Below, in pieces: positions 1,857 to 31,634 of a stretch of DNA of 33,066 nucleotides. The position numbers and the translations under genes are program-made. Position 1 is the first letter of the stretch, and each line of letters starts with the position of its first letter. This DNA comes from a virus: positions 7,505-40,570 of the IMG/VR virus record IMGVR_UViG_3300030430_002772; one strand, given 5' to 3'. The notes under the pieces are model-generated. The model worked only from the letters and a program-made list of their open reading frames with translations, was not told the origin of the DNA and did not search any database.

Positions 1857-2906
1857 TTACCTTATTATATAATTAATACCTGTTTTAAAATCATACCACT
1901 CTCTGTTCCAGTATTTATTGTATTTGCCTTCAACAAAAATACCTAATTGTTTACTTATTTTCTGGCCAAATATTAAACCACCAGAATAATCATACCATTG
2001 GCCATTTACATAATTATGATAATTAAATTCACCGCCATCATCATAGTGATATGGCATTAAATTAGCCCAAGTATGTATCCAAAAGTTTTTATTATAATAA
2101 TAATAATCAAAACCTAAAACAATAGAGTGCTGTATAATTCTATCTAACTCGTTTCTTTTTTTCTCTGTGTAATTAGCTAATACTTGTGGTATAACCACTT
2201 CTTTCCAAACTTCAGAGCTATTAGCAACGGTTGTTCCGCTTGGGTCTTTATACTCACTATTATACACGTCAATAGTATAACCTTCTTGTATTGCTAAGTA
2301 AGTGTAATGCAAATTGCCATTATCCAAGACCCATTGTTCTAGCGGATCGTAACCGTAAGGCTCTGACAAACGTTGAGCAGCGCCAATATTAAAACTTAAT
2401 TTACCTATAGTATATCTATATCTTTGTGATGTTTCAAAATATTCTACGTCAGCAAAACCATCTTTTAAATATTCAGCTTTAGCTAACCAAACACTATCAA
2501 CATATCTTATAAAATGATGTTGATCTAAATACTCTACGCCTTCTTGTCTTTTATAATCTACTTGAAACAAAAACTCTACACCATCTCTTTTACCAATAGT
2601 AGCACCGTCACTATAATTAGACTCAGTACCATCATAAAACGTGTTAGCTCTGTTTTCATAACCAAATCTAGCTATTTTACGCACACCTAACGTTAAATTA
2701 TAATCATAAGGCGTTCGTACAGTTTCTACACTTAAACCATCTGTAACACTATAAGTTTCTACATCTGATATAGAAGTACCACCGTTAACAGCAGTGTAAA
2801 ATGTAGAAAATTTAAATATATCTTTTATATTATCTTGACCACAACATTTTTTAGGTACTGAACAAGAAAATAAAACAACTACTATTATTAATAATATTTT
2901 TTTCAT
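1857..2906 (-). CDS. Exported outer-membrane beta-barrel-like protein
   Basis: The product is 349 residues. The N-terminus (MKK followed by a run of Ile, Leu and Val) is a clear Sec signal. It ends in LFSC at 12-15, a weak lipobox, or in a signal peptidase I site near CCGQ at 21-24. The rest is rich in alternating aromatic and polar residues, for example around YYYYNKNFWIHTW and FVEGKYNKYWNREWY. The final strand-like FKTGINYIIR is what an outer-membrane barrel shows, although the last residue is Arg rather than the usual aromatic. Its ATG overlaps the TGA of the T9SS-signal gene (ATGA), so the two are probably translated together. It could alter the host surface or block further phage adsorption. 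The barrel is inferred from pattern; no family was recognised. Confidence 0.72.
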   Translation of the reverse strand: MKKILLIIVVVLFSCSVPKKCCGQDNIKDIFKFSTFYTAVNGGTSISDVETYSVTDGLSVETVRTPYDYNLTLGVRKIARFGYENRANTFYDGTESNYSDGATIGKRDGVEFLFQVDYKRQEGVEYLDQHHFIRYVDSVWLAKAEYLKDGFADVEYFETSQRYRYTIGKLSFNIGAAQRLSEPYGYDPLEQWVLDNGNLHYTYLAIQEGYTIDVYNSEYKDPSGTTVANSSEVWKEVVIPQVLANYTEKKRNELDRIIQHSIVLGFDYYYYNKNFWIHTWANLMPYHYDDGGEFNYHNYVNGQWYDYSGGLIFGQKISKQLGIFVEGKYNKYWNREWYDFKTGINYIIR

Positions 2907-4816
2907 TTTATAAATTTCTTTTCAACGTTTCCATCGTCATATATAAACAATAACAATTTGTTTTTAATTATTTTACTTGGTCTACCTAATAAATCTGTTA
3001 CACTAATTAAATTTGCAATACGTTTAGGTATTGGTCCTACCCAAGTTCCTTCGCAATAATCATAAGTTAACTGACATGTATTGTCCCACTCATTTTCACA
3101 GCAATAGTCATCTACTTCTATTACCCAAGCATAACAAGGATCGTTTAACCAATATGGATTACCAGGTCCTGTTATACAATCCGCCGCATACAAGCATGCC
3201 AAGGTATCGTAAACGTTAGCGGCAATATTATAATTCCAAGCGTCTTGATCCATGCACCCGACAACAACTTCAATACACGAGTTATTATCAGTATTAGCAA
3301 GTGAGTCGTAATTAATAGCAGTACTATCAGTGCACCCGTAAATAAATGGTATGCAACTGAAATTTTCTGTGTTAGCGTCAGCTTGGTAGTTAAACATACT
3401 CGGATCAGTACAACCGTATATATAAGGAACGCAAGGATTATTATTGTCTTCAGCATTAGCAAGTGGATTAAAGTTAAACATTGTTGAGTCCATACAACCA
3501 TAAACAAATGGCTCACAACTTCCATCATCAGTATTAGCTAAACTATCATAGTTAAACATTGTACTATCAGTACAGCCGTAAACGTATGCTATACACGTAT
3601 CTGGCGTATTTGCTAACGGATTATAATTTAACGCTAGACTTTCCATACATCCAGTTACAACAGGTATACAAGAACCTTGTATTTCTAAATTAGCATCAGG
3701 ATTATAATTAAAAGCAGTTGAATCCATACAGCCAAGTACAACTAAAGTAGCGCAGCTACCGTCATCATAATCAGCTAGAGTATCATACTCTAAATAAATA
3801 GGGTTCATACAGCCTGGATTATAATAACAAGTACTATCATCAGTATTAGCTAGTGAATCATAGTTTATAGCTACAGTATCTGTGCAACCAAATATTTTTT
3901 CTATACAAGTATTACCACAATAAGGTTGACCTGTTACGGGGAAAAACGGTGGTATAGGATTTACAAAACCACCCTCAATATCTATAGCTACATAATCTTC
4001 TGAATATAAGCTGTAACCGCATTGTACAGCTGTAAAATCAGACTGTTGTGTTATTTCAAAAATAGCTCTAACAGGATAACCTGCTACTAAATTTATAAAA
4101 AATGTTGTATCAAAACCATCTATCAATGTGTATGTACCTATGTTTTGATAATTAAATGGTGGTACTAAACTTGTTGCTTGTGATAATTTTAAACTAGAAC
4201 CAGCCCAACCATTACCAGCTAAATCTGTTAACTCTAGCTCGTGTAAACAACTGTCTATATCTATATCTGTATTAGCACTGTCTACGTAGTTGTATGCTAA
4301 TGAATCAGTACAACCATATATTTTAAGAGTTAAACACATACCTGTATCTACTGTAGCCGCTGGATTAAACTCTACATAGTTAATATCCATACAACCAAAT
4401 ACAGGCGGTGGTGGTGGGCAGCCAGACGTGTAAATTGTATCATATATTTGATAACCAAAATCAGCAACAGGCAACTCCCATATAGTGTCACCGCATTGCT
4501 CTATGTATACAGAACCATCATTACCACCCCACAAACTACCCGCAACACCATCTCCGTATAAATCATTTATAACAATATAAAAACTGTCTATAGGTGCACA
4601 AGCACTAGCGTATTGTGGTTCATAATCTATTATGTTAGTGTAAGGACCACCGTGCATAAGTGTATCACCAAAAAAATCCATTATATACCAAGAAGTTTCT
4701 TCTGGATATTGATCTGGATTTATAGTAACGTTTAAACTCCAAGTACCAGGTGAGCATTGTGAGTATACTGTATTTATTGAAAATAAAAATATAAATATAT
4801 AAAGTAGTTTTTTCAT
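2903..4816 (-). CDS. Secreted GCTD-repeat protein with T9SS sorting signal
   Basis: The product is 637 residues. Residues 1-20 form a Sec signal peptide ending in a YSQ site. Residues 22-130 and about 190-298 are beta-rich segments; the first has a D-x-YGDG loop, the second a similar GNG loop. Eleven copies of a cysteine repeat of the form GC(T/M)D-x4-NY-x3-A-x(n)-C lie at 141-190 and about 309-545. A Cys-rich stretch at about 560-590 (CCENEWDNTC) follows. The C-terminus, about 601-637 (VTDLLGR, then FIYDDGNVEKK), reads as a type A T9SS sorting domain. All of this is typical of Flavobacteriia surface proteins and unusual in a phage. It should be exported and then moved through the host T9SS to the cell surface. 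It sits between two other exported genes, 1 base after the thioredoxin-like gene. An adhesive or exclusion role is inference. Confidence 0.85.
   Translation of the reverse strand: MKKLLYIFIFLFSINTVYSQCSPGTWSLNVTINPDQYPEETSWYIMDFFGDTLMHGGPYTNIIDYEPQYASACAPIDSFYIVINDLYGDGVAGSLWGGNDGSVYIEQCGDTIWELPVADFGYQIYDTIYTSGCPPPPPVFGCMDINYVEFNPAATVDTGMCLTLKIYGCTDSLAYNYVDSANTDIDIDSCLHELELTDLAGNGWAGSSLKLSQATSLVPPFNYQNIGTYTLIDGFDTTFFINLVAGYPVRAIFEITQQSDFTAVQCGYSLYSEDYVAIDIEGGFVNPIPPFFPVTGQPYCGNTCIEKIFGCTDTVAINYDSLANTDDSTCYYNPGCMNPIYLEYDTLADYDDGSCATLVVLGCMDSTAFNYNPDANLEIQGSCIPVVTGCMESLALNYNPLANTPDTCIAYVYGCTDSTMFNYDSLANTDDGSCEPFVYGCMDSTMFNFNPLANAEDNNNPCVPYIYGCTDPSMFNYQADANTENFSCIPFIYGCTDSTAINYDSLANTDNNSCIEVVVGCMDQDAWNYNIAANVYDTLACLYAADCITGPGNPYWLNDPCYAWVIEVDDYCCENEWDNTCQLTYDYCEGTWVGPIPKRIANLISVTDLLGRPSKIIKNKLLLFIYDDGNVEKKFIK
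3182..3892 (-). repeat. Nine consecutive GCTD-type repeats inside the T9SS-signal gene
   Basis: This stretch encodes residues 309-545 of the 637-aa protein as nine units of about 20-28 residues. Each begins GCTD, GCMD, GCMN or GCME and ends with a cysteine, so each has two cysteines that probably form a disulfide. Two further units lie at residues 141-190, separated from the block by a beta-rich domain. The units differ in sequence, so the DNA is not an exact tandem repeat. Several units share the phrase NYDSLANTD, which points to recent internal duplication or recombination. Confidence 0.85.
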
Positions 4817-4817
4817 T

Positions 4818-5156
4818 TTAAAAATCGCTCATTATTAATTCATCAACTTCATCTTGCACTTCTTTTCTAGTAGCAGACATAGTAAAACTAAGATCTGCTT
4901 GATAACGTTTCACTTCTTCGCCATTAAAAATTATAATTGTAGGTACTACAACTATATTATATTTTTTTTGCCAGTTACCTTCGTCTATATTTATTCTTTT
5001 TACACCACAGTCTTTTAATTTACTTAACCAATCAACACTATTTGCTTTATTCCAACCAGCGTTAAACTCAACTACACATACTTCTGTCTTGCAAATATTT
5101 TGGCTATTAGCACTTACAAATAAAAACATTAATATTATTAATATAATTTTTTTCAT
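4818..5156 (-). CDS. Exported thioredoxin-fold protein lacking CxxC
   Basis: The product is 112 residues. Residues 1-19 are a Sec signal (MKKIILIILM, then FLFVSANSQ). The mature part follows a thioredoxin fold: VCVVEFNAGW at 26-35, a helix, INIDEGNWQKKYNI at 55-68, then VVVPTIIIFNGEEV with the cis-proline at P72. Where thioredoxins have W-C-x-x-C, this protein has W35-N36-K37-A38-N39, so both redox cysteines are missing. Three other cysteines remain (C22, C27, C50). It is therefore probably a binding or structural protein rather than an oxidoreductase, in the periplasm or outside. Its ATG overlaps the TGA of the upstream one-helix gene by four bases (ATGA). Confidence 0.8.
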   Translation of the reverse strand: MKKIILIILMFLFVSANSQNICKTEVCVVEFNAGWNKANSVDWLSKLKDCGVKRINIDEGNWQKKYNIVVVPTIIIFNGEEVKRYQADLSFTMSATRKEVQDEVDELIMSDF

Positions 5157-5431
5157 TGATATAGTTTTTCTTCTATTTTTTCAATAGACTTTTTTATTTC
5201 TTTCACGTCTTCTTGTGTAGTCATAATAGTTTGTCTAATCATTTGATCTTTCATGTCAAACTCCATGCGTGTAACTTCAGGATCTGGTGGCGCTGGTAGC
5301 TTTTTTGCCTCTGCAATATCAGCTTGTAAAGTGAACCACATACCAACTAAAGTAGCTATTAAAGCAGCTATGCCACCTAAAGTTTTAATGCTTATTTGAA
5401 AGCTGGTATCTTCATTTAATTCTTTAGACAT
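5153..5431 (-). CDS. One-helix membrane protein with coiled coil; holin or i-spanin candidate
   Basis: The product is 92 residues. One hydrophobic helix spans about 17-36, preceded by a short polar segment. A Pro-rich linker (LPAPPDPE) follows, then a charged heptad-like helix at about 60-91 (EDVKEIKKSIEKIEEKL). This layout suits a small phage lysis protein, either a holin or an inner-membrane spanin with its coil in the periplasm. No partner outer-membrane spanin is certain; the next genes do encode exported proteins. It opens the exported-protein cassette, 41 bases after the giant virion protein, and overlaps the thioredoxin-like gene by four bases. The topology is visible and the lysis role is inferred from layout only. 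Confidence 0.7.
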   Translation of the reverse strand: MSKELNEDTSFQISIKTLGGIAALIATLVGMWFTLQADIAEAKKLPAPPDPEVTRMEFDMKDQMIRQTIMTTQEDVKEIKKSIEKIEEKLYQ

Positions 5432-5472: not shown

Positions 5473-8400
5473 TTATTTTTTACTTTTGCTTTTGTCTTGC
5501 AGCTGTATGATTTTGTTTACTCTATCTTCTTCGTATTTTAAATCTCTTATTTGTTTTGACGATAAACCTAAATCAATTAACATGTTTACTTGATCTTTTT
5601 TATTCATTTTAAATAAATCTATAGATCTTTGCTCTTCTTTAGTAGGAACATAATCTTTAATAGCGTTAATAGTAGAGTCTATTTTTCTTTCATTTATTTT
5701 ACGTAACTTCATTATAATATTTACTCTATCAGATTCTTTTGGATATCTTTTAGGATTTAAATTATTATCTTCAAGTATTTTAATTTGCTCGTTTTTATTT
5801 AAATCAAAAACAGACTTTTCTATTATTTTTAATTTTTCTTCAGGTGTAGCTTGTTCTTCATTTATAAGCCTGTTATTTTCTCTTATAGATTTTTTAATTT
5901 CATTTATTTCATTATCTTGTATACCAACGTCCCATCTGCTCCAACCAGCTGCTACAGCTACTCTTTGCCACCATTTGTTTTCTTTATCAAGAGCGGCACT
6001 TAAGTTTTGTACTTTTCTAAGTAATCTAGCCACAGGTATATTTGTAAAACCTTCTATGTAAGCCGTGCTTATATCGTACATAGGATTATCAAGGTTATCT
6101 AAAGGTAGTTCTGAAAGCACATCTTTATTCCACTCTAAGTTTCTTTCAGCTCTAGCTATTTTTCTTATTTTAATACCAATAGGTGGTGATAACTGTAACA
6201 ACTCTTCCCAAGCTGGTGTTTTAAAAAAGCTTTTATTGTCTAAATTATCAGTTAACTTTATAGCATAGTTTTTAACTGTAGATATAACAGCACCTCCAAC
6301 ACCCATACCTTTTAACAAACTGTCTATAGTACCATTTATTACTCTTTGTTTTTTAGTATCAAAAAACTTTTTAGTTTTTTCTTCGTCTTCTTCTTCTTCA
6401 TCAAACATCATAGCAAACAAAGCATTTTGTAAAGCATTAAATATAATAGCCTGCACAGCTCCGTAATATATTATTCTTGATATATTAGCTGTATCACTTT
6501 GTACTTGATTAGTGTAACCTTTTGATATTCTTCTATTTACTAAATCTAAACCAGATTTTTTAATTATCCTAGCATATTGTGCTGTAACGTTTTGAAAAGC
6601 TAATATAACTCTACCAAGAGGTGATCTTTGCTGTTGAGAAACCATATCAGGCCTAGCAGACTGCTGCGTAGATTCAGCTAATTCTTGAAAATCAATAAAC
6701 GCTTTTGATTCTGCTTCTTTTTGTGACAAACCTTGTTTTACGTAAGTATTAACTCTATTTCTGTAAAAAGTAGAACCACCGCTAGCAATAGCAAAACTAT
6801 CCGCTAATTGTGTAGGTAAAAAACCTATGTTCAACAAGTATTTTGTAGCTGCTACTACAGGATTTTTAGAGCCTGCAACTTCTCTAGCTATTTCACTAGC
6901 GTTTACATCAAAAGCAGCGCCACTACGTCTTTGTTTTAAATAATCAGAGTTAAACAAAAACGAAAAGTCTTTCCAATATTGTTTTTGATTAGCAAATGCA
7001 GCGGCGGCTTTAAATATATTATTGTCACCAAAGTTTATAAAGTTAACTGTAGATAAAGTCTGTAGCACAGCAGATCTAGCATTAAAGAACATCGTTGCAC
7101 CAACAGAACCGTTTACCCAGTCTAAAAAATTATTAACTATACGGTGGTTACCAGTTGGCCTATTGCTACCAGTTTTATTTACATAAAGCATATCTTTTAG
7201 TGCTTCTACAAAATTATCACCAAACGCAGCTCTAATTTTATTTATGTTTTCGTCAGAAAATATTATATCTGCATTTTCTTGATATTCTGTAAAAAACTTA
7301 GCTCTACCAACTCTACCAGTAGCATCAACTAGATCATATCTAATGTTACTACCTTGCCAGCTATCACCAGGCGATACATAACCTTCTTCAACTCTTGATA
7401 TTTTACCTACTTGATCTGCGAACTGTAGTATATCAGAGTTTTCTTTAACAAAATTAGTTAAGTTTTTTAAATCAGTTTTAGTTAAACCAGGTACTTCAAA
7501 ACCAGCTTTGTCAAACAAATAAACTCTTATAGCATCTTCAACAGTATAATCACTTTTAAGTATTTTTTTACTTAAACGTTTACGCACATCTGGCATTGAT
7601 TTTATTAAAGCTCTATAATCATTAGCTATAGCTTGCTTAGCTACGTTTAACTCTCTATAAGCTCTGTTTAATGGTCTTATTAAAGCTTTTTCAAAAAAGT
7701 CTCTATGTTTGTTACCTTTTGCGCCTTTACCTATAAAGTTATATAATAAACCAACAAAATCTTCATGTGATGGTGGTATAAAAAATCTAAATCTACCTTT
7801 ACCTCTACCTCTTGCTCTACCTTTTGCTTCAGAAAAACGTTTTTTAGCATCTATACCTTTTACCTCTTCTAGTATTTTATTAAAATCTTTATTTAGTGAT
7901 TTACTAAACTTAATTTTAGCTTGTACAGATTTACCTTTAATATCTAACTGATTAATAACATCAGCAACAGCTTTTACATTAGGCAAAGCATCGTCAACAA
8001 AATATATATCATTGTAACCTTCAGAGTACTTACCAGCTATCCACATAGCTTTTGCTTCACCTGTACTATTACCTAAGCCAGTAATATTTTCTAATGGTAT
8101 GTTTATTCCTTTTGTTTTAAGCCAGCCGTGTATTGCTGTAGCGCTTTCAGCTGGTCTAGCTGTTAATATATAATTGTTTTTAGCTCCGTATTTTTTTATT
8201 CTATTTTTAAGCTTTTGTAATAGCGGCCCGTCAACACCACCTCTAACATTAACAAAATCTTTAAAATCAAAAGTATAACCTAAGTCTGTAAGCTCAGGCC
8301 CTTTTATTGGCCATTGCCCACTACTTATTCTAACCTGATCACCATCTGGACTTGTAGCTAAAATAAAGTTTTCGCCTTTATCAATTAATGTTTCGTCAAA

Positions 8401-11400
8401 ATCAAAAGCAGACATGCCTCTCGATGTTTTACTATATTTTAACGGTGATCTAGCTTTAAAAATAGTATTTTCTATATTAGAAACATTTTGTGATTTACTA
8501 AATTTCATTGCATTATCTACAGCTTCAGCAAATATTTTTGCATCTTTAGTCTCAGATAAATTTAACGGAGATTTACCTATAACCTTATTGTCTATACGAC
8601 TCATTAATCTAACGTTAGTTGTGTGCTTACCAACGTTTTGTTTAGTTTTTGGTCTTCTCGATGTACTATTTTGTGAGTATAATTTAAAGTCACCTTTAAA
8701 ATATGGAACATCTATGTTGTAATTTTGTTTTATATAGTTTTTAACTTTAGTATTAATATTATCAATAAAATCGTTACCAGTGTTTTCAAATAAAAAGAAA
8801 CCACTTTCACCAACATTTATACCACCGTTACCTTTATCTACCATACGTTTAACTACAGCTTCTTTAGTTAAAGGAACTTTTGATTCTGTCCAAAAATTGC
8901 TTAAAAGCCTTTTAATTTCAAGATTTTTATAATCTTTAGCACTGATACCATCAGAAGAGTTTGTAATAGGATCTTTTGATAATTTTATAATTTTTTCAAG
9001 TGTTTTCGCAAGATCATCTTTAATACTACTATAAGAATCTTTAGCTATTTCTAGCTCTTGTTTAGTAGATTCCCAAACTATTTTACCATTAATAATTTTA
9101 AAATTTAGTGTTTCAGAAACTGTTCTTGCTTGGTCCATTTTTATTTCAACACTATAAACATCTCCTCTTTTATTGCTAATCATAATGTCGTTTGCACCGT
9201 CAACTTCTGTTACGCTTTCATTTACTTCTATACCTAAACCTTTAATTACTTGGTTTAATATATCTAAATGTATTTGTTCATACATTTTGTAAACAGGTGG
9301 TATGTTTTTTGCTTTTTTACTTTTAAGTTTTTTGTACCTTTTTATTAGTTCTTGTAACAAAACAGGATTTTTAACATCACCAGACTCTTCAAAATATCTT
9401 TTATTATATATTTCTGTAACTATATCGTATATTACGTTAGAAGACTGTTCAAGTTCTTTTGGTTTAATATTTTCACTTGTATATTGATTTTTAATATATG
9501 ATAAAGCTTTTTCTTTAGTTTCAAAATTACTTTCTTGTTTAAGTTTGTTAAAGTATTTTCTTGCTACGTTAACTTCGTCACTAGAACTAATTGAAAATTT
9601 AAGGTTAATATCTCTATTTATAGTAGAAGCTAAAACTTGTAAATCATCACTCATTAAAACATCACCTTTTAAATCAGCAATGTCTTTTCTTTTCTGTAGT
9701 ATTTCAGGCTCTTGAGCTACTTGCATAGTTGCATCATAATTTAATGAAGCCGCTACGTATTTAGCTAATTGATCTTTTCTAGTGCCTCTTAAACCTGATC
9801 TAAGACCTGTTTTTGGATTTACTAGTGGTTGATCAAAAAACGCTACAAATTGCTCCTCTGTTGGCATTACTTTTTCATACAAACTAACAGACTGACCTTT
9901 GTCTATAGTATTTAAAGCTGATGGAGGTAAAAAATTATCATTAACAGCATCTTGAACTTCTTTTTTACTTGTAAGCTTTTTAACAAATTTAGTGAATACT
10001 CTTTCGTTGTCAGGCACGTTTCTTTCCATTTGTACTAAATCAGCTGTAAACATAGACTCTATTAAAGGTACTCTAAACTTTTTTATAGTAGGTATATATT
10101 TAGCTTTAGTACCTAACATATTTTTTACTTGTTTAAATAAATATGTTGAAGCTTCTTTTGTTAGGTCTCTTTGTATTTGTCTAGCTGTTTTACCTGCATC
10201 ATAAGCTCTTATTAATACTTTACGAGCTGTATCTAAAACAGTATTATAAGCATCGCTACCGTCTTCAATACCTATTTCTTGTCTAAGCTTTGATTTAGTA
10301 GGCTCAGCTTTTTCAGCTGCTTCTCTTTTTCTTCTAGCTTCCGCTTGGGGTGATATATCTTGCGTTTCCAAAGCTTCTAATGTAACATCTGTTTCGTCTG
10401 CTACTTGTGTTTTTATTTCACCTTCTTTTGTTCTATCATCTACGTCTCTAGCTGTTCTTTGTTCTACAGTAGTTTTATACTCTCTATTAAATACATTACC
10501 AGCTTTATTAGCTAGTTGACTGTTTATCCAACCAAATAAATTATCATTTGTTTCTGGATTAAAATTTCTAATATGATTAGTTAACTCAGTATAAACTTTA
10601 TCTACAAAATCTACAGGTACTTTATCACCTTTAAATTTAGCTGCAATTAAATCATCTAAATAATTATTTTGCTTTATCTCTGTAATAGCATTGTCAGCGC
10701 CACCTTCATCCCAAGACTTTTTACCACCCTCAAAACTATAAGTACTACCTATCTCTTTTACACTTTCAGTTATTTGTTGCTTAGCTTCTGCTGATAAAGA
10801 CTTTTTATTTATTGTTTCTACTTCTTCAGGTTTATCTAGTTTTTGAAGTTTTGAAGATTCTATACGAGCATCTAGTATTCTAGTACCCATTAACTTGCCT
10901 AATAAACCTTGTCTATTTATATTGTTGTTGTAGTTTTTAATAAATCTAACTAAGTCTTGAGCAGTTTCTATTTTTACGTCTTGCAAGCCAAAACCTAATA
11001 AAACACTGTCAAATTTATTTCTTAAACTACTAGTTCCAGCGTCACTTAAATCTATTTTTTGTTTATCAATTAAATCTGAAAAAACATTTATGTACTCTTC
11101 TAAAGCACCTTTTTTTATATTACCATTTTTGTCAGTATAATGATCGTTAATTCTTTTTTGTACTAAAGCGTATTCTTTTGAATGATTTTTTTCTAAATAT
11201 TTTTTTAAATCATCTACTAAAGGCTTCATAGAAGCGTTATCAGTTTTAAACTGCCTTGAAATCATATAATGTAAAAGCTCATGACCAACAACATTAGTAG
11301 CGCCTTCTAAACTAGCTACTTGTTTGTTTATGTATATTTGAGCTTTACCATCTTTATTTTTACCAACAAACATACCGTCAGCTTTTTCGTCAAAATTAGT

Positions 11401-12894
11401 ATCACCTTCTTTAATTAATTTATCTATTTGCTCTTGGTTTTCTAGTATTTTAACTTCTAAATCGTCTCTATTTATACCTTTTAGCTTTTTAAGTCTTTTC
11501 TCTATTATTTCAGAAGCTCTTATAGCTTCTCCCAATATTTTTTGAGTAACAATATCAGTAGCATCGTATTCTTTACCTACTAAATCAAAGTTTTCTTGTA
11601 TTAATTCTAAATTTCTAATCTCAGCGTTTTGTTGCGTAGTTGAACTGTACCTATCGTTACCTATTATATTGTTATTTTTATTTATATTATCTAAATTAGT
11701 AGCGTATTGTTTAAGTTCTTTGTCTGTTAAATTTTCAAAACTATTTACTAAATCTTCTAGTTTTTTATCTCTCTTTTTTATAAGATTATCTAACTCTTTT
11801 TGTATTACTTGTTTTTCGTTAGCAGGTGCATTTTTAACATCTTTACTAAGATCAAATATTTTTTGACCTAACTCAAAGTTTTCAACTTTCCAAGTTTTAG
11901 GTGCTATATATTGATATAAATTTTTTTTGTCTTTATCTTGAGTAATAGCACCTATAGCTCCACTTTTACCACCTAATAACAAAGCTGGTAAACTAGCGTT
12001 TATGATATTATCAATATACTTCTTTTTACTAAAGTCATCGTCATAAACAAAAACGTTAGCACTTTCTTGAATTATTGCATTTAAAGTTTCTGTTCCTGCT
12101 TCAACAAAAGCACCACCACCTACTTTTCTAATAAAACTTTCTACAAAACCTTGAGTATACTCTTTAACAGCTTTTTTATTAGTACCACCACCTGGTATAT
12201 CAATTAATCCTTTTAAATATCTACCTCCTATTAGCTCAGTTACAACTTCAGATCCACCAGCTATTACTGAGTTTAGCGCTATTTGATCTACAGTTTGATC
12301 TGGTCTATTTTTTAAGTCTTCATAATAATTACCACCGTATGTAGAAAGCCCTAATACAGCACTACCAACTTTAGGATTTATAACAGATATAACAGTACTA
12401 GGCGCTGATTTAAAAGCATTTTGTAATGTTAACTCTGCAGCATAACCGCTTTTACCTTCTCTAGTTAAATCAGCTATATCTAACTCTCTACCTGTTTCAT
12501 CTACATACTTATTAGATATTAAATCGTTTAAATTTCTTACAGTTTGAATAAATAATGGCGCTCGTAATTTTCTTAGTTCAGCATCTCTTATTTGTTCTTC
12601 TCTTGATTTACCTTGTATGTTATCTGTGATTGTAAAAAAACTATCAATAAAACCTGAAGAAATATCATCTACACCAACAATAAAATCAAATATATATGGT
12701 AAAACATATTTATCTATACCAGTTGGCATTATATCAATACCTGGTATTTTTCTTACTTCACCAACAACATCTGGTTTAATTGGGCTACCATCTATATTAG
12801 CCACTTCATAACCTGACGGTGTCATTTTAGTATACACAGGCTCGTTTGCAGAGCTAAAATTTCTACTAATTATTTGTTGTAATATATCAGACAT
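5473..12894 (-). CDS. Giant polyvalent internal virion protein (metallopeptidase, nuclease-like and HAD domains)
   Basis: The product is 2473 residues. Regions in order: an N-terminal helical part with a small Gly/Ala-rich hydrophobic stretch at about 170-230; a zincin-like motif H538-E-L-L-H542; charged helices; a PD-(D/E)XK-like core with D1236 and E1250-I-K1252; a HAD domain with D1498-F-D1500-E-T, T1578 in LTARP and D1634-D1635; an Arg/Gly-rich linker near 1691-1701; a helical region with a hydrophobic segment at about 2139-2165 followed by an acidic run; and a charged coiled-coil end. K-[FY]-S motifs at 1099, 1464, 1486 and 1662 fall at module borders. The size, mixed enzymes and position after the 645-aa gene suit a packaged protein ejected into the host, like T7 gp16 or phage polyvalent proteins. 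Start chosen at ATG 12894, 9 bases after the upstream stop. Confidence 0.82.
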   Translation of the reverse strand: MSDILQQIISRNFSSANEPVYTKMTPSGYEVANIDGSPIKPDVVGEVRKIPGIDIMPTGIDKYVLPYIFDFIVGVDDISSGFIDSFFTITDNIQGKSREEQIRDAELRKLRAPLFIQTVRNLNDLISNKYVDETGRELDIADLTREGKSGYAAELTLQNAFKSAPSTVISVINPKVGSAVLGLSTYGGNYYEDLKNRPDQTVDQIALNSVIAGGSEVVTELIGGRYLKGLIDIPGGGTNKKAVKEYTQGFVESFIRKVGGGAFVEAGTETLNAIIQESANVFVYDDDFSKKKYIDNIINASLPALLLGGKSGAIGAITQDKDKKNLYQYIAPKTWKVENFELGQKIFDLSKDVKNAPANEKQVIQKELDNLIKKRDKKLEDLVNSFENLTDKELKQYATNLDNINKNNNIIGNDRYSSTTQQNAEIRNLELIQENFDLVGKEYDATDIVTQKILGEAIRASEIIEKRLKKLKGINRDDLEVKILENQEQIDKLIKEGDTNFDEKADGMFVGKNKDGKAQIYINKQVASLEGATNVVGHELLHYMISRQFKTDNASMKPLVDDLKKYLEKNHSKEYALVQKRINDHYTDKNGNIKKGALEEYINVFSDLIDKQKIDLSDAGTSSLRNKFDSVLLGFGLQDVKIETAQDLVRFIKNYNNNINRQGLLGKLMGTRILDARIESSKLQKLDKPEEVETINKKSLSAEAKQQITESVKEIGSTYSFEGGKKSWDEGGADNAITEIKQNNYLDDLIAAKFKGDKVPVDFVDKVYTELTNHIRNFNPETNDNLFGWINSQLANKAGNVFNREYKTTVEQRTARDVDDRTKEGEIKTQVADETDVTLEALETQDISPQAEARRKREAAEKAEPTKSKLRQEIGIEDGSDAYNTVLDTARKVLIRAYDAGKTARQIQRDLTKEASTYLFKQVKNMLGTKAKYIPTIKKFRVPLIESMFTADLVQMERNVPDNERVFTKFVKKLTSKKEVQDAVNDNFLPPSALNTIDKGQSVSLYEKVMPTEEQFVAFFDQPLVNPKTGLRSGLRGTRKDQLAKYVAASLNYDATMQVAQEPEILQKRKDIADLKGDVLMSDDLQVLASTINRDINLKFSISSSDEVNVARKYFNKLKQESNFETKEKALSYIKNQYTSENIKPKELEQSSNVIYDIVTEIYNKRYFEESGDVKNPVLLQELIKRYKKLKSKKAKNIPPVYKMYEQIHLDILNQVIKGLGIEVNESVTEVDGANDIMISNKRGDVYSVEIKMDQARTVSETLNFKIINGKIVWESTKQELEIAKDSYSSIKDDLAKTLEKIIKLSKDPITNSSDGISAKDYKNLEIKRLLSNFWTESKVPLTKEAVVKRMVDKGNGGINVGESGFFLFENTGNDFIDNINTKVKNYIKQNYNIDVPYFKGDFKLYSQNSTSRRPKTKQNVGKHTTNVRLMSRIDNKVIGKSPLNLSETKDAKIFAEAVDNAMKFSKSQNVSNIENTIFKARSPLKYSKTSRGMSAFDFDETLIDKGENFILATSPDGDQVRISSGQWPIKGPELTDLGYTFDFKDFVNVRGGVDGPLLQKLKNRIKKYGAKNNYILTARPAESATAIHGWLKTKGINIPLENITGLGNSTGEAKAMWIAGKYSEGYNDIYFVDDALPNVKAVADVINQLDIKGKSVQAKIKFSKSLNKDFNKILEEVKGIDAKKRFSEAKGRARGRGKGRFRFFIPPSHEDFVGLLYNFIGKGAKGNKHRDFFEKALIRPLNRAYRELNVAKQAIANDYRALIKSMPDVRKRLSKKILKSDYTVEDAIRVYLFDKAGFEVPGLTKTDLKNLTNFVKENSDILQFADQVGKISRVEEGYVSPGDSWQGSNIRYDLVDATGRVGRAKFFTEYQENADIIFSDENINKIRAAFGDNFVEALKDMLYVNKTGSNRPTGNHRIVNNFLDWVNGSVGATMFFNARSAVLQTLSTVNFINFGDNNIFKAAAAFANQKQYWKDFSFLFNSDYLKQRRSGAAFDVNASEIAREVAGSKNPVVAATKYLLNIGFLPTQLADSFAIASGGSTFYRNRVNTYVKQGLSQKEAESKAFIDFQELAESTQQSARPDMVSQQQRSPLGRVILAFQNVTAQYARIIKKSGLDLVNRRISKGYTNQVQSDTANISRIIYYGAVQAIIFNALQNALFAMMFDEEEEDEEKTKKFFDTKKQRVINGTIDSLLKGMGVGGAVISTVKNYAIKLTDNLDNKSFFKTPAWEELLQLSPPIGIKIRKIARAERNLEWNKDVLSELPLDNLDNPMYDISTAYIEGFTNIPVARLLRKVQNLSAALDKENKWWQRVAVAAGWSRWDVGIQDNEINEIKKSIRENNRLINEEQATPEEKLKIIEKSVFDLNKNEQIKILEDNNLNPKRYPKESDRVNIIMKLRKINERKIDSTINAIKDYVPTKEEQRSIDLFKMNKKDQVNMLIDLGLSSKQIRDLKYEEDRVNKIIQLQDKSKSKK

Positions 12895-26459: not shown

Positions 26460-27950
26460 TTACTTCATTAACATAAAGTTATTAGCACCTTGAGTAATCA
26501 AACATCTCTCAGTTAAGAAATGTAGTTGCATTGCGTCTAAAGCAGATGTAGCAGCACCTACAGAACCAGTAACCCAAGTTTTCATTCTTCGGTCGTCAGT
26601 TTGTGAAGCTCTAAATCTAACGTGTAAGAAAGGACGTCTCATACTAGCTCCTACAGTTTGGTCATAAACTGAAGAAGTACCAGCAGGAATAAAGACACCT
26701 CTAATAGCGTCAGATCCAGCAACTGCGTTAATACCACCTCTTGTAGCTAAATCGTTTAAGTATCTAAAGTCAGACTTGTAGAAGTCATAAGAACCTCTTC
26801 TAAATCCTGAGAAACCTAAATTTAAAGCCATATCTTCAGAGTTATTAAATACTCCGTAAGAAGTACCACCAGCTCCGTAAGAGTTCATTGAAGCTAACAT
26901 GTCATCAATAGCTAAGCTAGTTGATCTGTTAACAAACATCATATACTCTTCAATAGCACCTTGCTTGTCAAACTCTGCAAGTATTGCATCAAACTCAGCT
27001 AAATCAGTAGCAGCGTTAACACCAGTTACACCAGAAGTTACGTTACCTCTATCAGTAATAGCATCAAATAAACCTTGAGTACCAACTAAAGTATCGTTAC
27101 CAGCTACAGGTGTTCCTAAGAAAGTGTCAACAGCATTTGTACCAGAACCTCTAACAGACTCTAACATTGCCATTTCGATGTAATCAGTGAATCTAGCTCT
27201 AGTATCAGCTTCGGCTTTTAAATACCATAAGTAACCTGATTGACCAGACTCAGTAGAAACTTCAACCCAACCAATTCTAGACGCATCAGAACCTGATACT
27301 TCGTAGTAATCTTTCATTATGATTGGTTTGTTAGTAAAAGATTTGAAATCTGGCTCGTTAGCTGTTCTTGCTTCTGTAGTAGAAGCTCCAGCAGCATTGT
27401 AACCAACACCTTTTGCAAACTCAGAACCATAAACTAAAAGAATAGTTCCTTTGTCAGCAGTGTTTCCAGAAGTTGGTATTGTAGAACCATCATAAGTTGC
27501 AACAGTAATATCAGCAGCAGTTGCACCAGATCCTAAACCTGTAACTACACCTTTAAATACTCCAGTAGGAGCAGCTACAATAACAGTATCATTTAATCTA
27601 ACACCGTGAGTTAATAAACCGTCTGCATCAAATCCATTTTCATCAATATCACACTGAACAGTTATAACGTTGTCAGCGTCAATATCACCTTTGTACGATA
27701 AATGTAATCTACCTTGCTCAGACCATACTACTTGATCAGCAGTCATAGCCTCTTCTGCACCAACTTGAGCTAAGAAACCTGAAATAGTTCTTGGTCCAAA
27801 AACTTCAGCTTCTTTTTCCATCAAGTCCGGCACGTATTGTTGTCCCCAACCTGCGTTGTCTGCAGACGAGAGATCTAGATAATTTGAAGTAAGTGTTTGC
27901 TTTACTGCAGCAGGCACACTATTCAAATTAGTTCCATTTGTAATTGCCAT
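26460..27950 (-). CDS. Major capsid protein
   Basis: The product is 496 residues, about the size of crAss-like major capsid proteins. The N-terminal part (SSADNAGWGQQYVPDLMEKE, then GPRTISGFLAQVGAEEAMT and QVVWSEQGRLHLSY) and the C-terminal FLHVRFRASQTDDRRMKTWV are patterns I recall from capsid proteins of marine Bacteroidota phages with the HK97 fold. A small beta insertion at about 85-190 has repeated Val/Thr/Gly strands. The gene follows the probable scaffold by 20 bases and is closed by a strong terminator. Its codons look less A/T-biased than those of its neighbours, as expected for a highly expressed protein. Confidence 0.85.
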   Translation of the reverse strand: MAITNGTNLNSVPAAVKQTLTSNYLDLSSADNAGWGQQYVPDLMEKEAEVFGPRTISGFLAQVGAEEAMTADQVVWSEQGRLHLSYKGDIDADNVITVQCDIDENGFDADGLLTHGVRLNDTVIVAAPTGVFKGVVTGLGSGATAADITVATYDGSTIPTSGNTADKGTILLVYGSEFAKGVGYNAAGASTTEARTANEPDFKSFTNKPIIMKDYYEVSGSDASRIGWVEVSTESGQSGYLWYLKAEADTRARFTDYIEMAMLESVRGSGTNAVDTFLGTPVAGNDTLVGTQGLFDAITDRGNVTSGVTGVNAATDLAEFDAILAEFDKQGAIEEYMMFVNRSTSLAIDDMLASMNSYGAGGTSYGVFNNSEDMALNLGFSGFRRGSYDFYKSDFRYLNDLATRGGINAVAGSDAIRGVFIPAGTSSVYDQTVGASMRRPFLHVRFRASQTDDRRMKTWVTGSVGAATSALDAMQLHFLTERCLITQGANNFMLMK

Positions 27951-29207: not shown

Positions 29208-31634
29208 TTATCTAGGTGTAAAGCCAGACATATCAGCAGCACTTCTCCCTCCTAGTATATCATTACCTGCAGACTCAAACTTTTTAGCCGGTTGATTACC
29301 TTTTCTTTGCTCTATTAATTCTGATTGTTGACTAGCTTGTATTCTAGTTCTTTCGTCTTTACGATCTTCTTTTTCTTTTTCTCTACTTCTTAATCCTTCA
29401 ACTTCTATACCTTTTAACTGCATGTTATATTGAAACTCTAATTGCATTAGTTGTTGCTTAGCTTGTATTTCTTGCTGTAGCTTTTGTATTTCTAGTTGTG
29501 ATTTTAATTGCACAAGTCTCGCTTCTGATTGTGTTAAAGCTTGTTGTTTTTGTATTTCCATTTGTGCTGCAGCTTGTTGTTGCTGTGCATTTGCCTGTGC
29601 TTGCGCTTGCATGTTTTGTTGTTTAGCCTGTTGATCTTGTTCCATTTTCTTTTTTCTACGTATTTTAAGAACTTGATTTGCAAGCTTAACATTGTTTATT
29701 TCTCTAATATCTATAGCATCTTCTAAGTCTATAGTTTGTTGCTGTAAAGACATTTGTATGTTATTTTCAAGCATAGCTTTTTGCTCGTCATCTGGCATTA
29801 ATTCTATAAATATACCAAAATCATATAAATGTAACTCTGACATTTCTTCTAACGTAGCTACATTGTGAACACCTATACTTTGTATAAAAGCATCTTTTGT
29901 TGGAGAATATTCTATAATATCAGATATTCTAAGTGATAATTTTTCTGCAGTTTCAGCTGTTAAAAATAAACCAGCGTCTAATATATGTCTTGTAGCTGTA
30001 TTACTATTTGCAGCAGCTATTTTTTGTATACCAACTAGAGCCCTATCATCTGGCATACTACCATCTCTAGCTTCATTTAAACCGGTTACATCTCGTATCA
30101 TTTGCATATAGTAATTATAGTTACTTATAAGTGCTTGTATTTTATTTCCGCCACTACCAGATGTTATTTCTTGTATTGGTACTTTACCAGGATTTAAATC
30201 ACCGTCTTGTGTAAATGATCTACCTATAACGCTACCTGTTTGAAAAAACATATTTAAAGCTTCTTGTGGATTGTAGTTTGTGCCATTACCTAAATCTATT
30301 TCTGCTAAACCATCTGCATCTAAATAAACACCGTCAGGTATCATACGTGACATTACTTGTTGTAACTTTAAATGAGTAAGTTGTATCATGTCAGCAAAAC
30401 CAGTAGTACGTTTTACAAGTGAATCAATATTGCCTTTGTACATACGTGGCGCAACTAAACTATAGTTCATTTTAACTTTGTTATAATCACTTTTTGGCCT
30501 CATCATATTTTTAGCCATACCCCAGCTTAACAACTTGTTAGTGCCAACTACCATGGCGCCTTCATATAAAACTTCTATAATTCTATGTAGTCTTGAAAAA
30601 TTACCCTCAGCATTTTCTGGTGGGTTAAAACTATCGTCTTTTTCTATAGCTTTATCAGCACCTGTAGCTGTTTCTTTTATTTTATAAACCTCGTTCATAT
30701 AAGTTTTATAATTAAAATATAAAACTTGAACTTTGTTATTATCAAACTCGTCGTAACTACTAGCGTTTTTATAAGAGTTGTTTGTGTATAAAGATCTAGA
30801 CTGTATTATTTCTTCTAAATCAGACTCTTCTAAGTATGGGAATTGTTTTGCTAGTTCGTTTATCGGTATTGTTTTTATTTCACCTACATAATATATGTCA
30901 TCAAAATAAGGTGATTCAGTATAAGAATAAACTAAATCAGCAGGATCAACATATTCTACAGTAGCACCTTCTGAAGTTGTGTAGTTTGTTTTAACAGCGC
31001 CAATACCTAAAACTGTTAAATCTCTATAAAATCTTTTTCTAATTAAATCATATTGGCTTCCTTCTAGCAACACATTAATAGCTTGTTCTTCTGCTATTTC
31101 TACAGCTTGTTTGTAATTAAGTTGCATGTGTATTTCTAACTCTTCTTGTGACTCTGGTAAATTTAAAGGATCGTTTTCGTATAAGTTTATATTAAAGTTT
31201 TCTTCAACATAATCGTTCATTTCAACAGTGTTCATGTCGTCTATAATAGACTGCATATATTGAGTTCTTTTTTCAATACCATAAGGATCTTGTGAGTACG
31301 CTTTTATTTCATAAGATCTGTCAGCCATACCATTAACAACAATATCTACAAACTTAGGTATAATCGGCACTGGCGTCCAGTCTAAATTTAAATAGGACAA
31401 ATCACCATTTATAGATAACTCATCCTTATATTTTTGTATTGATTGATTACCCTCTGCGTACAATCTTAATCTGTGAAAGTCATTATAATTCTTATGGTAT
31501 CTATTTATACCATTGTCTTTATTAAACCACTCATGTTCTATAGCTTTTGCTACTTTTAATCCATAATCATAACTAAGCTTTTCAGCGTCACTTACCACTT
31601 GACTTGGAAAATAATTATTAATAGAATATGACAT
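29208..31634 (-). CDS. Portal protein
   Basis: The product is 808 residues. The N-terminal and central parts are mixed alpha/beta with segments typical of podovirus portals, such as NLDWTPVPIIPKFVDIVVNG near 95-115 and DVTGLNEARDGSMPDDRALVG near 510-530. The region at about 658-735 is a long Gln-rich helix (QQAKQQNMQAQAQANAQQQQ), suited to a C-terminal barrel entering the capsid as in P22. Twelve copies would form the DNA entry channel and bind terminase. The gene begins 2 bases after the terminase stop and is followed by the scaffold and capsid genes, the normal order. The call rests on size, order and recalled pattern. Confidence 0.83.
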   Translation of the reverse strand: MSYSINNYFPSQVVSDAEKLSYDYGLKVAKAIEHEWFNKDNGINRYHKNYNDFHRLRLYAEGNQSIQKYKDELSINGDLSYLNLDWTPVPIIPKFVDIVVNGMADRSYEIKAYSQDPYGIEKRTQYMQSIIDDMNTVEMNDYVEENFNINLYENDPLNLPESQEELEIHMQLNYKQAVEIAEEQAINVLLEGSQYDLIRKRFYRDLTVLGIGAVKTNYTTSEGATVEYVDPADLVYSYTESPYFDDIYYVGEIKTIPINELAKQFPYLEESDLEEIIQSRSLYTNNSYKNASSYDEFDNNKVQVLYFNYKTYMNEVYKIKETATGADKAIEKDDSFNPPENAEGNFSRLHRIIEVLYEGAMVVGTNKLLSWGMAKNMMRPKSDYNKVKMNYSLVAPRMYKGNIDSLVKRTTGFADMIQLTHLKLQQVMSRMIPDGVYLDADGLAEIDLGNGTNYNPQEALNMFFQTGSVIGRSFTQDGDLNPGKVPIQEITSGSGGNKIQALISNYNYYMQMIRDVTGLNEARDGSMPDDRALVGIQKIAAANSNTATRHILDAGLFLTAETAEKLSLRISDIIEYSPTKDAFIQSIGVHNVATLEEMSELHLYDFGIFIELMPDDEQKAMLENNIQMSLQQQTIDLEDAIDIREINNVKLANQVLKIRRKKKMEQDQQAKQQNMQAQAQANAQQQQAAAQMEIQKQQALTQSEARLVQLKSQLEIQKLQQEIQAKQQLMQLEFQYNMQLKGIEVEGLRSREKEKEDRKDERTRIQASQQSELIEQRKGNQPAKKFESAGNDILGGRSAADMSGFTPR

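Follow-up and report, generated by a model that had tools for sequence, protein, structure and literature searches.

A short C-terminal tag on a cysteine-rich phage surface protein is exchanged with type A sorting domains, pointing to probable exploitation of the host's type IX secretion by marine flavophages

The DNA analysed here, a 33,066-base window taken from a virus record of 40,570 bases, encodes a 637-aa protein which, at the sequence level, consists of a signal peptide, a body of Cys-rich repeats and a tag of 38 aa whose place can be taken, in homologues, by the type A sorting domain (CTD) of the type IX secretion system (T9SS). We propose, with a probability of about 0.6, that its gene belongs to a four-gene envelope-remodelling cassette of marine flavophages. 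The surface part of the cassette would be delivered by the T9SS through this unmodelled 38-aa signal, which would also be a main export tag of small-genome marine Flavobacteriales, and which is swapped for a type A CTD, perhaps suiting the sorting machinery of the host. T9SS-dependent export of the 637-aa protein to the cell surface by the host is considered quite likely from these comparisons.

A sequence-only reading of this DNA had described a phage operon gene for a repeat protein with a Sec signal and a T9SS sorting signal, and had offered superinfection exclusion, cell aggregation or host attachment as possible roles. The gene is a single open frame of 637 codons on the minus strand, which that reading had left out (Table 1). 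The Sec signal, the eleven two-Cys repeats and a C-terminus with DLLGR and YDDG elements are all found in the translation, and the operon junctions are as described, with one base (4817) between the gene and the stop of the upstream gene and an ATGA overlap with the downstream gene at 2903-2906. By inspection the N-terminus, MKKLLYIFIFLFSINTVYSQ, is a Sec-type signal, as it is in the homologues. Exactly eleven GC[MT][DNE] repeats are present, the first starting at residue 141 and the last at residue 520, and the protein contains 35 Cys. The C-terminus is LISVTDLLGRPSKIIKNKLLLFIYDDGNVEKKFIK, in which the final VEKKFIK places the motif E lysines at the extreme end. Structure prediction of the full-length protein gave a mean pLDDT of 52. 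The repeats reached about 30, i.e. their fold is not predicted, and the tail was modelled as three strands with pLDDT of about 75–84. Whole-model Foldseek matches were transglutaminases and were dismissed as meaningless. Fold matches of the two beta-sandwiches are weak, the best (Z 6.5) being a carbohydrate-binding module and a PLAT/C2-like domain for the second. Neither the complete protein nor its tail or other segments gave a T9SS or domain match when scanned against Pfam, NCBIfam and PHROGs.

Table 1. Features of the window discussed in the text, with the basis of each assignment.
Feature	Position	Strand	Basis or remark
349-aa exported outer-membrane beta-barrel (predicted), cassette partner, 61/76 loci	1857..2906	-	predicted fold
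637-aa exported GC[MT]D-repeat surface protein gene (export predicted)	2903..4816	-	ATG start; 76 viral homologues
Short T9SS-type sorting tag (putative; TDLLGRP...IYDDGxVEKK), residues 600-637	2906..3019	-	comparative evidence
Conserved Cys-rich module CYAWVI.VD.YCCENEWD..CQ.TY.YC ahead of tail junction, residues 545-592	3041..3184	-	invariant alignment columns
Eleven two-Cys GC[MT]D repeats, residues 141-541, interrupted by second beta-sandwich	3194..4396	-	motif count
Second predicted beta-sandwich domain, residues 187-303	3908..4258	-	AlphaFold2 and fold comparison
First predicted beta-sandwich domain, residues 21-133	4418..4756	-	AlphaFold2 pLDDT about 70-85 over most
Sec-type signal peptide, codons 1-20	4757..4816	-	by inspection; MKK, hydrophobic stretch and Q in complete homologues
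112-aa exported thioredoxin-like protein (predicted), cassette partner, 64/76 loci	4818..5156	-	AGWN replaces CXXC active-site region
92-aa protein, cassette partner, 61/76 loci	5153..5431	-	one N-terminal TM and coiled-coil-like tail (inspection)
2473-aa phage protein upstream of cassette, 37/76 loci	5473..12894	-	locus comparison
Virion structural (capsid-type) protein	26460..27950	-	phrog_13704, E=7e-96
Portal protein	29208..31634	-	phrog_6547, E=2e-151

The phage origin claimed for the gene is borne out by the portal (phrog_6547) and virion (phrog_13704) proteins encoded in the same window. The portal match places the virus among podoviruses of the phi14:2/elemo type. The host is very probably a flavobacterium, since the named relatives of this portal come from phages that infect Flavobacterium (elemo), Cellulophaga, Tenacibaculum and Maribacter. 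Two further minus-strand genes lie beyond the cassette. One (2-490) encodes a soluble PAP2-family phosphatase with PF01569 above cut-off and no evident signal peptide; a phosphatase of this family occurs near the cassette in 21/76 loci. The other (1460-1855) encodes a small basic protein with a DUF6321 domain, whose relatives form the C-terminal parts of a number of large phage proteins (PHROGs 10346, 727 and 3477).

The 637-aa protein and its tail matched no T9SS sorting-domain model in Pfam and NCBIfam. For the type B and type C models (TIGR04131/PF13585, NF033708), NCBIfam gave no match up to E 10 and Pfam gave none for the tail. The sequence-only reading had staked its claim of a T9SS sorting signal on such a match, and therefore other evidence was needed. 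What upholds the claim is comparative, namely tail exchange among viral homologues and usage of the tag in bacteria.

The proposed search for homologues in phage genomes found 76 in IMG/VR. The frame reaches a stop in 75/76, the exception being a contig that ends inside the tail. The short tag is present in 55 homologues, with no variation at D, L, G, R and Y across the 41 tails compared; the number of homologues together with these fixed residues argues that the short tail is not a product of chance. The other 21 carry longer, type A-like tails with a [YW]PNP motif, joined to the body at the same junction as the short tag, after the conserved Cys-rich module. When nine homologues were scanned with the models, 7/7 long tails exceeded the curated cut-offs of TIGR04183 and PF18962, and the two short-tailed proteins matched neither. 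When 43 viral records were searched over their whole length, 30 proved to have the short tag and the other 13 a type A CTD scoring above cut-off, so that 43/43 records have exactly one tail type, none having both and none neither. The open frames matched in this search are those of the 637-aa protein family gene. The sole second tag match, at a contig start (G170), looks like a repeated contig end, and two sub-cut-off TIGR04183 matches inside very long frames look like chance. Neither tail was found in the cultured phages phi14:2 and elemoE or in the metagenomic ctfjg026. Because phi14:2 and elemoE lack both tails, not all phages of this portal type need the gene. A tblastn search of annotated phage records with the short tag and the outer membrane (OM) barrel returned zero matches, and thus none to a cultured phage there.

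A gene tree was built from the protein bodies without their tails (74 rows). It requires 12 changes of tail type, at least 9 of which are forced by well-supported branches, and no bootstrap tree puts either tail type in one clade. From sequence, the short tag and the type A CTD look functionally interchangeable. Recombination may have contributed to the exchange; recombination that keeps either tail makes the same point.

The GC[MT]D repeats had been taken for a hallmark of Flavobacteriia surface proteins. This is refuted by cyanophage records that have such repeats, among them a protein annotated as a virion structural protein. The repeat type is common to phages of very different hosts, and a cyanovirus protein (L236; MH319765, about 3586-5139) has GC[MT]D-type repeats without a sorting tag. 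Both cyanophage cases favor a reading in which the 637-aa protein is a virion component, such as a coat or tail protein that joins the particle once the cell has lysed, with a tag that is inherited but unused. However, the signal peptide is kept, each genome has one sorting tail type, this tail is often exchanged for a model-positive type A CTD, and an unused tail would decay. Moreover, virions are assembled in the cytoplasm, where Sec-exported proteins would not come into contact with them. A virion role is therefore very improbable.

A profile built from the phage tails was scanned over about 85,000 species genomes to follow the tag in bacteria. It identified 76 bacterial loci, nearly all titled Flavobacteriales or other Bacteroidota; one titled Rhodobacteraceae MAG is probably a binning or labelling error. 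The tag lies 0–7 aa from the stop in every one of the 76 loci. Complete frames mostly start with a signal peptide, and their bodies are unrelated. In ten of these genomes the number of tags ranges from 1 to 51 and is 22–51 in eight; the same ten have 31–134 type A CTDs, with SprA in 8/10. The bacterial loci (L078-L153) also suggest that annotation of small-genome marine Flavobacteriales misses part of the T9SS-dependent secretome, up to tens of proteins in each genome. Among 148 genomes of one order, SprA was found in 56/57 genomes with the tag and in 68/91 without it (Fisher P 6e-5), a weak test because many of the SprA-negative genomes are 0.6 Mb reduced genomes, so that endosymbiont-sized members of the sample confound it. 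In a bacterial sulfotransferase-like family, the short tag or a close relative of it terminates L240-L250 and L255, and type A CTDs terminate L251-L254, which share 48–53% identity with the query. By sequence comparison this family is a second, independent tail exchange, in bacteria.

The short tag was also compared with type A CTDs by profile alignment. With 120 tags against 44 type A CTDs, hhalign gave P 0.0015 and a probability of 16%, in an alignment that matches LGR with LGR and terminal lysines with terminal lysines and leaves a gap of 13 columns in the tag. The phage tails alone gave a probability of 4%, which is uninformative, and the profile relation is suggestive only. A 38-aa tag is plausible as a secretion signal by analogy, since GFP is secreted when it carries no more than the final 22 residues of the HBP35 CTD, and secretion requires the motif E lysines (review PMC10202324). 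The lack of a match to the T9SS models and the weak profile similarity to type A CTDs are what one would expect if the tail were some other C-terminal feature, for example an OM anchor peculiar to marine Flavobacteriales. This is quite improbable, as such a feature would not account for swaps with type A CTDs on both the phage protein and a bacterial enzyme family, for LGR and terminal Lys elements that line up with their type A counterparts, or for a tag that goes with SprA. A T9SS-type tag is supported because type A CTDs that the models recognise replace it on homologues of this phage protein, because many exported proteins of T9SS-bearing Flavobacteriales end in it, and because the sulfotransferase-like family repeats the exchange.

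The gene for the 637-aa protein travels with three partners, and all four genes occur together in 58/76 loci. The barrel and thioredoxin-like genes next to it had gone unmentioned in the sequence-only reading. Neighbour genes are co-oriented in 223/223 cases, the gene for the upstream 2473-aa protein included. The latter protein has no significant family match and is conserved just upstream of the cassette. Three gene orders are found (38, 19 and 1 loci), which are cyclic permutations of one another. The 349-aa protein is predicted to be an OM beta-barrel (AlphaFold2 pTM 0.64), its top Foldseek matches being nearly all OM barrels. A homologue of the thioredoxin-like protein, in L292, scores above the Pfam Thioredoxin cut-off. 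The fold has no CXXC pair, and the cis-Pro loop, a strongly conserved RFQADLSFKM..AT segment and the SDF end are kept; it is perhaps a binding rather than a redox protein.

The barrel was absent from 147 of the 148 genomes of the order sampled for SprA. The single match lies on a contig of 43 kb that also encodes gp32, an amidase and a helicase of the DnaB type, and because of these genes the contig is taken to be a T4-like phage in the bin. It carries all four cassette genes, a type A-like tail and an adjoining amidase endolysin. This contig (L292/L293; G126 contig C32), binned with a Flavobacteriales genome, shares the third cassette order and by inspection also has queuosine-type and carbamoyltransferase-like genes. 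The phi14:2/elemo-type portal was present in 25/29 viral contigs checked. Since both phi14:2/elemo-type phages and the T4-like contig carry all four genes, the cassette, on this gene content, is shared by two or more phage lineages and behaves like a single unit.

These results suggest how the cassette may work. A late-module gene of a Flavobacteriia podovirus would yield a secreted Cys-rich surface protein. Sec would take it to the periplasm, the host T9SS (SprA/PorV route) would take up the tag, and the protein body would be displayed on the surface of the infected cell late in infection. The OM beta-barrel, the thioredoxin-like protein and the one-TM protein would be functional partners, so that several envelope layers would be remodelled late. 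The displayed protein and the barrel may then mask or replace the receptor surface, preventing both superinfection and loss of progeny on host debris. This masking role is tentative. It is ranked ahead of adhesion, lysis and a virion coat because it best fits a surface protein with an OM barrel in the late module.

As part of lysis, the barrel, the one-TM coiled-coil protein and the surface protein would weaken or open the OM together with the endolysin. By inspection, one TM with a coiled-coil-like tail is the layout of an inner-membrane spanin; an M15 peptidase lies further downstream of the cassette in the window's own genome, an M15-type motif flanks 24/76 loci, and the amidase adjoins the cassette in the T4-like contig. 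Spanin models were nevertheless unmatched, the endolysin motif is missing from the flank of many loci, and we know of no lysis system with a surface-displayed Cys-rich repeat protein as a part. A lysis role is distinctly unlikely. Alternatively, the exported protein could serve aggregation or adhesion, gluing infected cells to each other or to particles and raising local host density for the progeny. Its two predicted beta-sandwiches weakly resemble carbohydrate-binding and Ig-like folds, and adhesins are often displayed by the T9SS (PMC10202324). We consider this unlikely, since the fold matches are weak (Z at most 6.5) with no usable model of the repeats (pLDDT about 30), and adhesion leaves unexplained the co-conserved OM barrel and thioredoxin-like gene and the late-module place near endolysins.

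If the proposed cassette is as we describe it, use of the host T9SS would be a common, conserved tactic of marine flavophages, beyond one cryoconite phage. A short sorting signal missed by present models would mean that counts of secreted proteins in abundant marine Flavobacteriales are too low, by as much as tens of proteins for each genome, and the natural tail exchanges would provide a test set for the minimal T9SS signal.

Several known systems resemble parts of this one. T5 Llp, a small lipoprotein that acts on FhuA, is a phage receptor-masking protein. As proposed here, an envelope protein is produced during infection and could shield progeny by blocking a receptor, but here the protein is a large surface protein with a T9SS-type tag and predicted export. 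CwpV of C. difficile is a surface protein conferring phage resistance, which sets a precedent for action against phages from the cell surface; it is a host gene of a Gram-positive without a T9SS, and the likeness drawn here is one of function (PMC4737114). The PorP/SprF barrels of type B substrates (TIGR03519; PMC12618676) likewise set an OM barrel of similar size beside a T9SS substrate. The 349-aa barrel was considered as such a shuttle and this was unsupported, there being no TIGR03519 match and an hhalign probability of 12% over 22 columns, hence no convincing profile match. Unlike PorP/SprF it accompanies both tail types, and because it is retained with both, a substrate-specific shuttle is unproven for it. 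The type A CTD (PF18962, TIGR04183) shares with the short tag its extreme C-terminal place after an exported body, an LGR-type element, terminal lysines and swappability on homologous proteins, but is about 72 aa rather than 38 and has the YPNP, the GxY segment and the model match that the tag lacks. A literature search for the tag sequence found no match.

Phage T9SS cargo is already known, having been reported once, in Cryophage (Bellas et al. 2020, PMC7468147). That single phage has three variable accessory cargo genes (endoglucanase, GH39 and PA14), for which use of the host system was likewise proposed, possibly in superinfection exclusion. Its cargo has type A sorting domains, whereas here most proteins have a short tag that the models miss, and here dozens of phages each have a single member of one conserved cargo family, encoded within an envelope cassette that is itself conserved. 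Within the literature searched, the conserved single-cargo family across marine flavophages appears new, as do the short unmodelled tag frequent in likely hosts, the repeated tail exchange and the envelope cassette.
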